NCBI RefSeq assembly: GCF_003206065.1
Contig: NZ_PZJQ01000004.1
Coordinates: forward strand, 1,337,965 to 1,401,964
DNA length: 64,000 bases
Direction of reading: 5' to 3'
Origin: Salinicola halimionae
Lineage (GTDB): Bacteria > Pseudomonadota > Gammaproteobacteria > Pseudomonadales > Halomonadaceae
The notes beneath the pieces were generated by a model. The model was not told the DNA's origin and did no database searches. It saw only the letters and a list, made by a program, of their open reading frames with translations. Numbering within the stretch: the stretch's first letter is position 1; every line of letters begins with the position of its first letter. The translations under genes were made by a program, and so were the position numbers. This document shows, piece after piece, positions 14,289 to 18,956 of this stretch.

Positions 14289-15002
14289 ATGTTCCTCGAG
14301 GCGATAGCACTCTCCGAGACCGAATGGCAGGCCATCACTCTTAGCCTGAAAATCGCTGGCAGCGCGGTTGGGTGGATTCTGCTCCCTGGCATCGCCGTTG
14401 CCTGGCTACTGGCGCGCTACGAGTTCCGGGGAAAAGCCCTGCTCGACGGACTGCTGCACCTGCCGCTGGTGCTGCCGCCGGTGGTGGTGGGCTATCTGCT
14501 GCTACTATCGTTGGGCCGTAACGGCTGGCTGGGCCAGTGGCTGTATCAAGGCTTTGGCTTCTCGTTGCCCTTTACCTGGCAAGGCGCCGCCATCGCTGGT
14601 GGCGTAATGGCGTTTCCACTGCTGGTTCGTGCCGTCAGGCTCTCGCTCGAGGCTGTCGATCCCAAACTGGAAGCGGCCGCGGGTACGCTCGGCGCCAATC
14701 GTTGGCGCGTACTGTTGACGATCACGCTGCCACTGGCGACACCGGGATTGTTGACCGGAACGGTGCTGGCGTTTGCCCGCGCACTATCGGAATTCGGCGC
14801 CACCATCACCTTTGCGTCCAATATCCCCGGTGAGACGCGCACCTTGCCCCTGGCGCTCTATACCCTGATCCAGACACCTGGCAAGGAAGCCGCCGCCGCC
14901 CGACTCTGCGTGCTGTCGATCGTGATCGCCATGCTCTCGCTGATGGCATCTGAATGGCTGGCTCGCCGTGCCAGGCGACGTCTCGAGGAGCGTGATCGAT
15001 GA
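14289..15002 (+). CDS. modB: Molybdate ABC transporter, permease
   Basis: 237 residues with five to six hydrophobic segments. The ABC-permease EAA loop sits near 127-150 (EAAAGTLGANRWRVLLTITLP), which docks on ModC. The LPLVLPPVVVGYLLL and ALSEFGATITFASNIPGETRTLPLALY motifs are diagnostic of molybdate permeases. The stop overlaps the modC start (ATGA). Confidence 0.94.
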   Translation: MFLEAIALSETEWQAITLSLKIAGSAVGWILLPGIAVAWLLARYEFRGKALLDGLLHLPLVLPPVVVGYLLLLSLGRNGWLGQWLYQGFGFSLPFTWQGAAIAGGVMAFPLLVRAVRLSLEAVDPKLEAAAGTLGANRWRVLLTITLPLATPGLLTGTVLAFARALSEFGATITFASNIPGETRTLPLALYTLIQTPGKEAAAARLCVLSIVIAMLSLMASEWLARRARRRLEERDR

Positions 15003-16135
15003 AAGATGTCTCCCGCCATCACGCCTATCGTGCGAGCGACGCCGGCGCCGACAGCAACGCCCTGGACTGTCGCGTACGAAAACGACTGGGTGACTTCGAC
15101 CTGGATATCTCGCTCGCGGTGCCGGCTAGCGGAGTGACTGCGGTGTTCGGCCAATCCGGTAGCGGCAAGACCAGTCTGCTGAGATTGATTGCCGGCCTCG
15201 ACCGTCCGGATGCCGGGCACGTCCGACTCGGCGAGCGCTCGCTGACCGATGTCGCGAACAATATCCGGGTTCCGATTCACAAGCGCCAGCTGGGCGTGGT
15301 GTTTCAGGAAGCGCGGCTGTTCCCGCACTACCGCGTTCGCGGCAACCTGATCTACGGCATGCCATCGGCCGCACGGCCGCGTTTCGACGATCTGGTGGCC
15401 CTACTGGGTATTGGGCACCTTCTCGAGCGCCTCCCCGGGACACTCTCCGGCGGCGAGGCCCGGCGCGTCGCGATCGGCCGGGCCCTGCTGACCCAGCCAC
15501 GGATGCTGTTGATGGACGAGCCGCTGACCGGACTCGATGGCGAACGCAAACAGGAGTTGTTGCGCTATCTCGTTCGCTTGACCCGTGAGATCGACATTCC
15601 GGTGATCTACGTCAGTCACGATACCGCGGAAATCGTCGCGATAGCCGATCATCTCGCGCTGGTCGAACAGGGCCGTCTGATCGCTCACGGACAACTCGAC
15701 GAGCTGATGATGCGGCTCGATCTGACCGACCGGCTGGGCGGATTCGACGCTACCACACGTCTTAACGCCACGGTGGTCGATCACGACAACCGCTATTCGC
15801 TGACACGGGTTGCCCTTGGCGACGGCCAGACGCTGCGTATTCCCGCGGTCGACCAGCCCAAAGGTGCGTCGATACGTCTGCATATCGGTGTACGTGACGT
15901 CGCGCTGGCCCACACGATGCCCCGAGGCACCAGCTATCGAAACGGCCTCGAGACGACGATCGAGACGATCGAGCCCTCTCCGCAAGAACCCAGCGCCAAT
16001 GAAGTACGCCTGATTTTCGGGCGCCAACGACTGCGAGCGCGTCTTACTCGCCAGGCCTGTGACGAAATGCAACTCGTGGTAGGAAAATCCGTGATCGCGC
16101 TGATTCGAAGCGTCGCATTCGATTCGCGATTTTAA
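14999..16135 (+). CDS. modC: Molybdate ABC transporter, ATP-binding protein
   Basis: 378 residues. Walker A GQSGSGKTS at 51-59, signature LSGGEARR near 149-156, Walker B LLMDEPLTGLD about 171-181, switch His in YVSHD. A C-terminal Mop/TOBE region (about 290-370) fits the regulatory molybdate-binding domain of ModC. An N-terminal extension of about 22 residues precedes the first strand; a later start is possible, but the 4-base overlap with modB supports 14999. No T-tract terminator follows at once; the next element is the candidate small RNA. Confidence 0.93.
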   Translation: MKDVSRHHAYRASDAGADSNALDCRVRKRLGDFDLDISLAVPASGVTAVFGQSGSGKTSLLRLIAGLDRPDAGHVRLGERSLTDVANNIRVPIHKRQLGVVFQEARLFPHYRVRGNLIYGMPSAARPRFDDLVALLGIGHLLERLPGTLSGGEARRVAIGRALLTQPRMLLMDEPLTGLDGERKQELLRYLVRLTREIDIPVIYVSHDTAEIVAIADHLALVEQGRLIAHGQLDELMMRLDLTDRLGGFDATTRLNATVVDHDNRYSLTRVALGDGQTLRIPAVDQPKGASIRLHIGVRDVALAHTMPRGTSYRNGLETTIETIEPSPQEPSANEVRLIFGRQRLRARLTRQACDEMQLVVGKSVIALIRSVAFDSRF

Positions 16136-16251
16136 TTCAGAAACAGAGACTTGAAGCAGGCCGGGAAACGAGACCGGAAATTAATGTATCTCTTTGTAAC
16201 GAAAGGGATTTTTAGCCCATTTCCCATTCGCTTTGTGAATCTTTTCTCGAC

Positions 16252-16257
16252 TACAAT
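16252..16257 (+). promoter_or_regulatory. Candidate -10 box of the Csr-type small RNA
   Basis: TACAAT, matching the sigma-70 consensus at five of six positions, about 6 bases before the first GGA hairpin. The -35 is poor. A TGTA-rich stretch at 16194-16200 is too weak to call a GacA/UvrY site. Confidence 0.45.
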
Positions 16258-16261
16258 GCGC

Positions 16262-16433
16262 GAGGCAGGATGCCGCTGCGGCAAGGAGGCACCTTCAAGG
16301 ACGATGCGCACTCGCAAGGAGCGCGATCAGGGATAGCATCCAGGGATCGACAGCAGTGCAACAGGATGTTGCCGGCCCTCAAGGTTGAGACTCGACAGGA
16401 AGTCGAGCGCGAAGGGACTCGCTTCCGATTTTG
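16262..16433 (+). ncRNA. CsrB/RsmZ-like CsrA-sequestering small RNA (candidate)
   Basis: About 170 bases with nine GGA triplets (at 16268, 16285, 16299, 16318, 16331, 16344, 16364, 16398, 16415), nearly all in the contexts AGGA, AAGGA or AGGGA. Several lie in loops of small perfect hairpins: GGCA-GGA-TGCC (16264-16274), CGC-AAGGA-GCG (16313-16323), GCAAC-AGGAT-GTTGC (16358-16372), CTCGAC-AGGAA-GTCGAG (16391-16407), GCGA-AGGGAC-TCGC (16409-16422). GGA in a short loop is the CsrA/RsmA binding motif, and multi-hairpin RNAs of this size titrate CsrA. A -10 box at 16252 and a terminator at 16399-16432 frame it. Such RNAs are usually driven by GacA/UvrY and promote biofilm over motility, apt near cellulose and flagellin genes. 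Ends are estimates. Confidence 0.72.
16399..16432 (+). terminator. Terminator of the Csr-type small RNA
   Basis: Stem GAAG(T)CGAG (16399-16407, one bulged T) with CTCGCTTC (16418-16425), a 10-base loop holding the last GGA, then CGATTTT ending at 16432. It competes with the two last GGA hairpins, as CsrB-type terminator arms often do. Confidence 0.6.
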
Positions 16434-16537
16434 AATCAGTGGTTATTGTCTTCGCTCTTTTGCCCCGCCATTTTTCATCCTATTTTCCTCCCCGTCCCGA
16501 TGATCGTCGTCAGTTGCCGGCACGGACCGAAGGTTCG

Positions 16538-17227
16538 CTAGCGCGCGCCGCATCCTTTGATGATGACCTGGCACAGGAAGTCGCTGGCCGATCGAAAATC
16601 CTCGTCCCCGAGCTTTTCGCGATGCGTGATGCCGACAATCTGCGTCTCGAAGTCCGCGTAGTGCTGCGTCGCCGACCAGATCAGGAATATCAGCCAGACC
16701 GGATCCACCGGGTCCATCAGTCCACGCTCCGCCCACTGCCGGAAAACCTGAGTGCGGGCTTCCATCCATTCTTGCATGTCGCCGAAGAGCGATTCTTTCA
16801 GGAAAGGCGCCCCTTGAAGTATCTCGTTGGCGAATAGTCGTGAACTCTGGGGATGGGTCTGGCTCAGCCGCATCTTGCTGCGAATGAAGGCTTCGAGCAC
16901 TTCTGCCGGGTCATCGTCGACGCTGATATCGCTCAACATCTCGTTCCACCGCCACATCGTGCGTTCCAGCAACGTGATATAGAGTCGACGCTTGCTACCG
17001 ACATAATAGAGAACGTTCGACTTGGGTAGTCCGGCGGCGGCAGCGATCGCCTGAATACTAGCGCCACGATAACCATGCCGGGCAAAGATGTTCTCCGCGG
17101 CGTCGTGAATTCGCAGCTCATTGCGCTCCCGAACCGTCGCCTCAGAAAGATCGTGATTCACCACCGACTCCTTGCGTACATCAATCAGACTGAATTTCCG
17201 GGCCCCAGGGCTGACAACTCGATTCAT
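16538..17227 (-). CDS. TetR-family regulator, RutR-like
   Basis: 229 residues. N-terminal helix-turn-helix about 38-85 (AAENIFARHGYRGASIQAIAA, then GLPKSNVLYYVGSKRRLY). The C-terminal half has the RutR signature SRLFANEILQGAP and the IFLIWSATQHYADFETQ stretch, very close to the wording of E. coli RutR, which senses uracil and also controls purine catabolism. About 20 extra N-terminal residues precede the domain. Divergent from xdhABC-guaD; a perfect palindrome at 17359-17374 between the two starts is the expected operator. It therefore probably controls purine breakdown; the ligand (uracil, xanthine or another base) is not predictable from sequence. GAGAGG upstream supports the start. Confidence 0.85.
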   Translation of the reverse strand: MNRVVSPGARKFSLIDVRKESVVNHDLSEATVRERNELRIHDAAENIFARHGYRGASIQAIAAAAGLPKSNVLYYVGSKRRLYITLLERTMWRWNEMLSDISVDDDPAEVLEAFIRSKMRLSQTHPQSSRLFANEILQGAPFLKESLFGDMQEWMEARTQVFRQWAERGLMDPVDPVWLIFLIWSATQHYADFETQIVGITHREKLGDEDFRSASDFLCQVIIKGCGAR

Positions 17228-17358
17228 CGAGCAAACCTCTCGAGGCTTCCGGTACCGATGCTATGCTGAATCCGAGGGGTTGTCTGCCAAAGGTCCAGTT
17301 TTCGGAGCCGGCAGAGAGCACTTGCCATGCCACTCGGAATCGAGGACGCTATCTAAAG

Positions 17359-17374
17359 CTGACCGATCGGTCAG
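17359..17374. promoter_or_regulatory. Palindromic operator for the RutR-like regulator
   Basis: CTGACCGATCGGTCAG, a perfect 16-bp palindrome in the divergent TetR/xdhA gap. The RutR consensus is TTGACC-N4-GGTCAA; the TGACC-N4-GGTCA core is identical. It lies 100 bases upstream of xdhA and 131 from the TetR start, so it can serve both. Confidence 0.75.
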
Positions 17375-17474
17375 GATTTTATGACGAGCGCGTCTTTTCT
17401 ACTCGCGTATCGATGGCGACGGTATTGAATGGCGACTCTCACGATGACCAGACAATGATAACGACGGTTCCCCG

Positions 17475-18956
17475 ATGATCGAATTCTTTCTCAATGGTCA
17501 ACGTCAGCGTGTGGCGAGCACACCCGATACGAGCATTCTCGAGCTACTGCGCGGGCCGCTCGCCCTGCAAGGTACCAAAGAGGGTTGTGCTTCCGGTGAC
17601 TGCGGCGCCTGCACCGTGGCCATCGCCCATCCGCAAGAAGGCCAATGGAAAAACCTGCCGCTGGCATACCGCACCGCCAATGCCTGCATTACGCCGGCGC
17701 ACCAGCTTCAGGGCGCGCACCTGATCACCATTGAGGGACTCGCCCGGGGCGATGCGCTGCATCCGGCGCAAGCGTCGATGGTGGCCTGTCATGGCAGCCA
17801 GTGCGGCTTTTGCACCCCGGGCATCGTAATGTCGCTGTTCGCGCTGCACGAGCAGCAGCGCACGGCCGCGAGCCAACCCCTGGATGCCCATCGGCTGGAA
17901 GCGGCCCTGGGCGGCAACCTCTGTCGTTGCACCGGTTATCGCCCGATTAGGGATGCCGCCTTGAGCATGAACGACCATCCCGACACTCGCCCGCCCTGGG
18001 CCAATGATCCGACGCTCGAGAGCGAGCTTCATGGCTTGTCACAGAGCGTGGTTAGCGAGAGCGAAAACCAGGGCGGCTATCAGACCCCGACGACGTTGGC
18101 GGAGCTCATCATCGCGATGCAGCGCCATCCCGAAGCGTCGCTGGTGGCTGGTGCCACCGATCTGTGGCTCGACGTGACTCAGCGGCTAGCGCGGTTCGAC
18201 ACACTCATCGATCTTCGCCAGGTCGAAGAGCTCCGCCAGATCGCAGAGACCGCCGAGGGCTGGTGGATCGGCGCCGCAGTGACCTACCGCGAATGGGAAC
18301 CGCTACTGGCCGAGCACTACCCGGGGTTTGCGCATCTGCTGACTCGGCTGGGATCGGCCCAGATTCGCAACCGCGCCACCGTCGGGGGCAATATTGCCAA
18401 TGCCTCGCCAATTGGCGACACACCGCCGGTGCTGCTGACGCTGGATGCCAGACTGCGCCTGGCCGGCCCCGAGGGCGTGCGCGAATTGCCCCTCGAATCG
18501 TTCTTCCTGGACTACAAGAGGACCGCACTCGAGCCCGACGAATGCATCGTCGCCATCTATATGCCCAAACCCCAGCCCGATCATGAGCTGAGAGTATGGA
18601 AGCTCTCCAAGCGGCGTGAAGACGATATCTCGACACTGCTGGGCGCTTTCCGCTGGCGATTGAGAGACGGCGTTCTGACAGACGTGCGGATAGCTTACGG
18701 AGGCATGGCGGCGGTTCCGCTACGTGTCACAGCCGTCGAAGACGCGCTGGAAGGCCAGACGCCCGGCGAGGACGCCTTCGAGATCGCCAAGCAGGTGCTA
18801 CGAGATTCGCTCACGCCCATGAGCGATGCCCGAGGCTCTCGCGAGTATCGCCTCACCGCCGCGATCAATTTGCTCGAACGCTGGCGGCTGACGCTGGCCA
18901 GGGCCGACTCGAACGCTCCGACGCCGGAGGTGGCTCTCGATGCGTACGCTCACTAA
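17475..18956 (+). CDS. xdhA: Xanthine dehydrogenase small subunit (2Fe-2S and FAD)
   Basis: Electron-transfer subunit of the enzyme that oxidises hypoxanthine and xanthine to urate. 493 residues: plant-type ferredoxin domain 1-80 (EGCASGDCGACTV cluster ligands), second [2Fe-2S] domain about 85-155 (CGFCTPG and CRCTGYRPI), FAD-binding domain about 200-380 (VAGATDLWLDV and the GGNIANASPIGDTPP flavin motif), CO dehydrogenase flavoprotein C-terminal domain to about 480. All expected Cys residues are present. It overlaps xdhB by 17 bases. Transcription probably starts near the palindromic operator upstream. Confidence 0.94.
   Translation: MIEFFLNGQRQRVASTPDTSILELLRGPLALQGTKEGCASGDCGACTVAIAHPQEGQWKNLPLAYRTANACITPAHQLQGAHLITIEGLARGDALHPAQASMVACHGSQCGFCTPGIVMSLFALHEQQRTAASQPLDAHRLEAALGGNLCRCTGYRPIRDAALSMNDHPDTRPPWANDPTLESELHGLSQSVVSESENQGGYQTPTTLAELIIAMQRHPEASLVAGATDLWLDVTQRLARFDTLIDLRQVEELRQIAETAEGWWIGAAVTYREWEPLLAEHYPGFAHLLTRLGSAQIRNRATVGGNIANASPIGDTPPVLLTLDARLRLAGPEGVRELPLESFFLDYKRTALEPDECIVAIYMPKPQPDHELRVWKLSKRREDDISTLLGAFRWRLRDGVLTDVRIAYGGMAAVPLRVTAVEDALEGQTPGEDAFEIAKQVLRDSLTPMSDARGSREYRLTAAINLLERWRLTLARADSNAPTPEVALDAYAH

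Follow-up and report, generated by a model that had tools for sequence, protein, structure and literature searches.

The + strand at positions 16264–16433 of the window, by which we mean the whole 64-kb stretch of DNA analysed, very probably encodes a small RNA of about 165–170 bases that titrates CsrA; from the sequence, we give this reading a probability of about 0.9. The modC-linked RNA, as we call it after its upstream neighbour, would best be read as a new sequence family, titration as a mechanism being already known. Upstream of it lie a modE-like gene, modA, modB and modC, with a spacer of 128 bases between the modC stop and the RNA, and downstream follow a RutR-like regulator and then xdhA on the opposite strand. 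Since the RutR-like gene is encoded on the opposite strand, the RNA is not its leader. The RNA and its two direct neighbours are:

14999–16135, + strand: modC, the upstream neighbour (TIGR02142, 390 bits, cut-off 285)
16264–16427, + strand: predicted body of the CsrA-binding RNA (covariance model R1 matches 18/18 genomes of the genus; identity drops to 0.53 in 16430–16449)
16538–17227, − strand: RutR-like TetR regulator, the convergent downstream neighbour (scores best with the RutR model, at 174.5 bits vs a cut-off of 368)

The + strand of the RNA carries GGA at 16268, 16285, 16299, 16318, 16331, 16344, 16364, 16398 and 16415, whereas the − strand of 16264–16433 has two GGA. Six of the nine sites read A-N-GGA and the remaining three CAGGA. 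The preliminary description had reported nine GGA in 150 bases, most of them preceded by A or AG, with at least five in loops of perfect 3–6 bp hairpins. All nine were confirmed, each following A or AG, and a strict Watson-Crick scan placed six GGA in loops closed by stems of at least 3 bp, five of these with stems of 4–6 bp. Nine GGA alone are only mildly unusual, being reached by 112 of 5000 dinucleotide shuffles. Six A-N-GGA sites were reached by 2/5000 shuffles and five hairpin-loop GGA (stems of at least 4 bp) by none of the 5000, where the mean was 0.46; neither can be put down to chance. Furthermore, when 170-base windows were slid over the whole 64 kb (6383 per strand) with a threshold of four hairpin GGA, nine windows passed on the + strand, all inside 16231–16480, and 0/6383 on the − strand. 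At that density of at least four per 170 bases, the GGA-hairpin cluster is unique within the 64-kb window on both strands. Several hairpin-loop GGA and A-N-GGA sites on a single strand are what is expected of a CsrA-titrating RNA. The parts of the RNA, with the share of alignment cells that are paired and the conservation of each GGA among the 18 species, are:

16264–16274, + strand: hairpin 1, GGC-AGGAT-GCC (96% paired, with two-sided changes at two pairs; GGA at 16268 exact in 16/18, within at most five columns in 18/18)
16281–16290, + strand: hairpin 2, GC-AAGGAG-GC (86% paired; GGA at 16285 exact in 13/18, within at most five columns in 18/18)
16295–16304, + strand: short hairpin 3, TC-AAGGAC-GA (83% paired; GGA at 16299 in 18/18)
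16312–16326, + strand: hairpin 4, TCGC-AAGGAGC-GCGA (66% paired, the least kept; GGA at 16318 in 17/18)
16329–16346, + strand: two A-N-GGA sites outside the modelled hairpins (GGA at 16331 exact in 11/18, at 16344 in 18/18)
16358–16372, + strand: hairpin 5, GCAAC-AGGAT-GTTGC (93% paired, with two-sided changes at two pairs; GGA at 16364 in 18/18)
16378–16389, + strand: hairpin 6, CTCA-AGGT-TGAG, with GGT replacing GGA (GGT in 16/18; the two species that diverge most have GGA)
16391–16407, + strand: hairpin 7, CTCGAC-AGGAA-GTCGAG (100% of cells paired; GGA at 16398 in 18/18)
16409–16422, + strand: hairpin 8, GCGA-AGGGAC-TCGC (100% paired, invariant; GGA at 16415 in 18/18)

In hairpin 5, ACAGGATGT resembles the high-affinity CsrA site.

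The RNA is conserved throughout the genus, which here comprises the genome of the window and 17 relatives. A BLAST search with 16140–16520 as query gave matches in 16/58 genomes, all of the same genus, and the covariance model R1, built from 16 species of the genus, matched all 18 genus genomes, including two species outside the training set (E 1.3e-21 and 2.7e-20). Elsewhere in the family R1 gave weak matches in 10/232 other genomes (best E 1.5e-5 to 0.025). Two of these look like chance matches, namely L046, which is coding-like by eye, and L043, as judged from the alignment. When a pattern was derived from the 3' part, which is conserved, it hit 13 records titled Salinicola and one titled ‘Gammaproteobacteria bacterium MFB021’ among 14 named ones, and the genus is accordingly called Salinicola here. 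Identity over 16 species is 0.71–0.95 in the bins from 16250 to 16429, and the homology of the RNA ends near 16427. The orthologous RNAs of the 18 species are 163 to 179 bases long with 7 to 12 GGA each, and the gap holds conserved A-N-GGA hairpins in 18/18 genomes of the genus. At six of the nine sites, at least 17 of the 18 species have an exact GGA, the sites being kept in relatives as expected of a CsrA-titrating RNA.

We weighed the possibility that the region encodes a structured RNA of another sort, or acts in cis, with GGA motifs that are incidental. The overall stability is in keeping with it, as the folding energy of the whole RNA is ordinary and not above that of shuffles (z −0.13), and so is the lack of any Rfam family at threshold. 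The GGA columns, however, are better conserved than the rest (mean identity 0.94 vs 0.79 over 18 species; 14 of 10000 random triplet sets do equally well), and most of them lie in hairpin loops, which makes incidental GGA motifs very improbable. The stems also covary: six pairs have changes on both sides (shuffle mean 3.1; 15/500 shuffles reach six), and the covariation score is 0.093 vs 0.070 in shuffles (1/500 reach it), counts to be read in the light of an alignment that was fitted to the structure, of closely related species, and of five two-sided pairs still found when the partners are slid by −1. A small protein encoded by the 54-codon + strand frame at 16270–16434 hardly merits consideration. 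Its ATG is kept in 10/18 species, the lengths of 163–179 bases do not change in steps of three, and conservation tracks the GGA triplets; the earlier statement that no protein frame is credible holds, and the RNA appears non-coding.

The RNA had been described as CsrB/RsmZ-type; it matches no Rfam family at threshold. A search with 4227 families gave no gathering-level match anywhere in the 64-kb window, and a scan of 15500–17500 up to E 10 listed none of CsrB, CsrC, RsmX, RsmY and PrrB_RsmZ. When 16180–16480 was scanned, again up to E 10, the sole + strand match was PrrB_RsmZ (11.3 bits, E 2.2), spanning 16290–16432 and collinear with the hairpins; CsrB, CsrC, RsmX and RsmY were not listed there. 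Two of nine orthologous stretches, L036 and L037, matched PrrB_RsmZ with 22.5 and 21.9 bits, in a scan in which three chance matches to a nematode snoRNA outscored it. Among eight other stretches, L044 matched CsrB (29 bits, E 1.3e-4), L036 PrrB_RsmZ, and L048 RsmY (19.6 bits), all of clan CL00106 and all below threshold, and in that scan L038, L039, L045 and the window locus had no match to the clan. At genome scale RF00166 exceeded its 44-bit cut-off in 0/18 genus genomes. A lax RF00166 search (E up to 10) listed three weak hits for this genome; one is L140 (see below), and the window locus is not among them. This search gives no support because 12/14 control genomes also match at E up to 10. 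Membership was rejected at threshold, as RF00166 requires 44 bits. Since the Rfam matches are below threshold, the RNA is called CsrA-titrating by its anatomy and is not filed as an RsmZ.

Among known RNAs, it is like PrrB/RsmZ of Pseudomonas (RF00166) in length class, in its array of A-N-GGA hairpins and in the collinear sub-threshold match. Unlike PrrB/RsmZ it is without a separate terminator by scan and scores below 44 bits in 18/18 genomes, and the gene neighbours of Pseudomonas PrrB/RsmZ differ from its own. With CsrB of E. coli (CsrB/RsmB, RF00018) it shares the density of GGA, 5.3 per 100 bases here vs 6.0 by the same count, whereas it is about half as long, has nine GGA vs 22 and has no Rfam match to that family. 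CsrB and CsrC of Marinomonas mediterranea are likewise A-N-GGA-bearing, computationally found sRNAs of a marine gammaproteobacterium that bind CsrA, binding being predicted for the RNA described here (PMC8523701, available text). They carry a GacA box, whereas no significant one was found before the modC-linked RNA, and the same text reports lower amounts of both by RNA-seq when the BarA/UvrY-like pair was mutated (PMC8523701).

Two conserved elements precede the RNA:

16186–16199, + strand: conserved element GTATCTCTTTGTAA, some 70 bases upstream of the RNA (among 16 species 9/14 columns, G57, T58 and T64–A70 of the alignment, are invariant or conserved to at least 90%)
16252–16257, + strand: −10 box TACAAT (first T, A and final T invariant in 16/16 species)

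The TACAAT box just before the RNA, already pointed out in the preliminary description, is present, with these three bases invariant, and transcription would start near 16263–16265. A scan of 16100–16560 found no consensus promoter or sigma-70 pair. We considered whether the RNA is instead a processed 3' untranslated end of the modABC mRNA that binds CsrA, in the manner of RsmW of Pseudomonas aeruginosa, with neither a promoter of its own nor activation by GacA. According to the available text of PMC4950607, RsmW is derived from a 3'-UTR and is not activated by GacA; it carries seven GGA, and like the modC-linked RNA it follows a coding gene and is without a close GacA box. An origin of this kind is also consistent with the position of modC, which lies directly upstream in 18/18 genus genomes, including two added species in which the 1.5 kb examined showed neither the RutR-like gene nor xdhA, and with the absence of a terminator by scan between modC and the RNA. 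The RNA is, however, set apart from modC by the 128-base spacer, and in contrast to RsmW, reportedly cut from its 3'-UTR (PMC4950607, same text), it has a conserved promoter-like region before it, with the −10 box and the element some 70 bases upstream. We regard processing from the modABC mRNA as improbable, and prefer separate transcription.

Control by GacA/UvrY, claimed earlier, is not supported by a site. In the 100 bases upstream of the 18 RNAs, the best match to the GacA box TGTAAG-N6-CTTACA averages 7.5 of 12 vs 7.1 in shuffles. The variant boxes GTAAC-N5-GTTAC (7.2 vs 6.2 of 10 in shuffles) and GTAAG-N6-CTTAC (6.6 vs 6.2 of 10) are not taken as proof, and the upstream element GTATCTCTTTGTAA has no significant GacA-box match. 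For comparison, GacA sites lie 75 and 196 bases upstream of rsmY and rsmZ according to the available text of PMC4950607. Because the box score is close to that of shuffles, any GacA control is deduced from the presence of the system and not from a site.

A csrA gene was found in 38/38 genomes examined, with a single match in this genome that scores 122.5 bits with NF002469 (cut-off 73), so CsrA is present. A UvrY/GacA-like gene occurs in 18/18 genus genomes. Its best model is the UvrY/SirA/GacA family with 240 bits, below the cut-off of 280, and in this genome it is adjoined by genes read as uvrC and pgsA, the same order as in E. coli. A BarA-like hybrid kinase is also present, with BarA as best model (249 bits vs a cut-off of 890); the kinase search returned nothing at E 1e-50 and recovered it at 1e-8.

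On this basis we lean slightly towards activation of the modC-linked RNA by the GacA-like regulator. That it titrates CsrA under a regulator other than GacA is a serious possibility, if the less probable one. It would fit the insignificant GacA box, the FNR/Anr-type boxes found instead at some sister RNAs of the genus, and the description of Csr RNAs without GacA activation (PMC4950607, available text). Against it stand the retention of a gacA/uvrY-like gene in 18/18 genomes and a similar RNA of a different genus, at L047, with a near-perfect GacA box, TGTAGGTTATTTCTTACA, seen by eye at L047 225–242, about 65 bases before that RNA. Another RNA of the Csr type lies on the − strand of L039 (1460–1710), beside a hybrid sensor kinase that is BarA/GacS-like by eye.

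A hairpin plus TTTT had been described just after the RNA; the TTTT is present at 16429–16432, but a scan of 16100–16560 found no standard intrinsic terminator. A conserved 3' hairpin may serve as the terminator of the modC-linked RNA. The sequence CTTCCG (16422–16427), which closes the conserved block and is mostly unexplained by hairpin 8, takes part in a second possible structure:

16398–16426, + strand: alternative 3' hairpin, GGAAG-U-CGAG (16398–16407) paired with CUCG-CUUCC (16418–16426), which excludes hairpins 7 and 8

This hairpin would pair the GGA at 16398 and keep that at 16415 in the loop. Over the 18 species 98.1% of its cells are paired vs 36–48% when the partners are slid, although 102/500 shuffles also reach 98.1%, as most columns never vary. 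In its exact-pair form it is weaker by energy than hairpins 7 and 8 together in 18/18 species. When the isolated 3' segment was folded freely, with extra pairs allowed, the alternative type was the minimum-energy fold in 14/18 species, and in the species of the window it reached −13.8 vs −13.1 kcal/mol. The alternative hairpin may be the terminal one, a switch, or neither.

A genome-wide pattern of three spaced AGGA gave 78 matches (43 forward, 35 reverse; a control pattern gave 24 and 21), of which four, L140, L141, L142 and L145, were inspected. L145 was dropped, as it failed the test of four hairpin GGA. The other three are candidate Csr-type RNAs:

L140 1060–1200 (G000:C7:24859–24999), + strand: candidate with six GGA, three of them hairpin GGA, after an NsrR-like gene
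L141 928–1085 (G000:C7:857327–857484), + strand: candidate with seven GGA, three of them hairpin GGA, before a Crp/Fnr-family gene
L142 965–1200 (G000:C4:99264–99499), − strand: candidate with 13 GGA, seven of them hairpin GGA, in 235 bases

Among the four places, only L142, which follows a PAS-LuxR-type gene, has at least four hairpin GGA per 220 bases. L140 has a hairpin and a T run by eye. It is similar to L141, and relatives of the two occur in other species. As each of the two has three hairpin GGA, below the threshold of four, their candidacy rests on inspection by eye, on these relatives and on their mutual likeness. A joined L140 and L142 query found the L140 type (at least 98 bases) in 14/18 genomes and the L142 type in 5/18. 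This genome probably has about four such RNAs, with the modC-linked RNA among them. The latter had been proposed as a Csr antagonist of the organism, either ‘the’ or ‘one of the’ RNAs with this role. The wording ‘one of’ stands, in view of the hairpins in 18/18 genomes, csrA, the GacA/BarA-like genes and the weak matches to clan CL00106, and ‘the’ falls with the three further candidates.

The candidates appear to differ in their promoters. A putative FNR/Anr box, TTGAT-N4-ATCAA, occurs upstream of the L141 type and, in some species, of the L140 type; it is perfect at 6/27 distinct places listed and has one mismatch at five more. In this genome L141 has a perfect box of the FNR/Anr type upstream, TTGATCTGTATCAA, which several relatives keep at a similar distance, and the sequence upstream of L140 has four mismatches to it. 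L144 1010–1190 (G002:C136) holds a further GGA-hairpin array. A perfect TTGATCCGGATCAA box precedes it, a repeat resembling a terminator was seen by eye, and a second array of the L141 type follows after some 1.3 kb.

Two further groups were seen in relatives. A class of Csr-type RNA at L048 1500–1660 and L064–L067 occurs in 4/18 genus genomes and is absent from this one; by eye it has a T run and a hairpin resembling a terminator, and its best Rfam match is the sub-threshold one to RsmY given above. The second group, from a different genus of the family, is a Csr-type RNA flanked by genes read by eye, at L038 and L040, as eno and fdxA-mutS (L038 1515–1705 and L040–L042). Pseudomonas rsmZ also adjoins fdxA. 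Orthology with the modC-linked RNA was considered: the 3' ends are similar, but the gap of this genome that matches the eno/fdxA locus holds only a terminator-like repeat by eye.

In the proposed mechanism, a promoter just upstream of 16264 would drive, on the + strand, a non-coding RNA of about 165–170 bases. Its nine GGA sites, mostly in hairpin loops, would bind several CsrA dimers, and when abundant the RNA would draw CsrA away from mRNAs and thereby relieve the genes that CsrA represses. A special tie to the nearby cellulose, yjb and flagellin genes, as suggested earlier, does not follow from adjacency, because the RNA would act in trans. A more elaborate model, which we consider rather unlikely, is that of a distributed CsrA sponge. 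About four Csr-type RNAs would stand under the promoters of different sensors, the modC-linked one in every species and others with FNR/Anr boxes (the L141 type here, the L140 type in some relatives). The 3' end of the modC-linked RNA would have two states: CGAG (16404–16407) would pair either with upstream sequence, which leaves two CsrA loops exposed, or with downstream sequence, which buries one of the two in a terminal hairpin, and CsrA could itself set the number of open sites.

Halomonas anticariensis belongs to the same family as Salinicola. For its GacS-GacA system the sRNA entry reads ‘Unknown’ in the table of a 2020 review (PMC7366521, available text). The open-licence literature, as far as its text was available, yielded no named Csr/Rsm RNA for Halomonas, Halomonadaceae, Chromohalobacter or Salinicola, and an earlier naming is possible. 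CsrA of Halomonas hydrothermalis has been modelled in a paper whose available text does not contain ‘CsrB’ (PMC12889724). The available text of PMC5568370 does not mention Halomonas, and that of PMC13414033, PMC9049629 and PMC6471967 holds no Csr-type RNA of this family. The mechanism is not new in kind, and the gain lies in a new sequence family together with paralogs that have different promoters, some of them apparently wired to oxygen. In the Halomonadaceae, the candidate loci would provide the step that is missing between GacS-GacA and CsrA.
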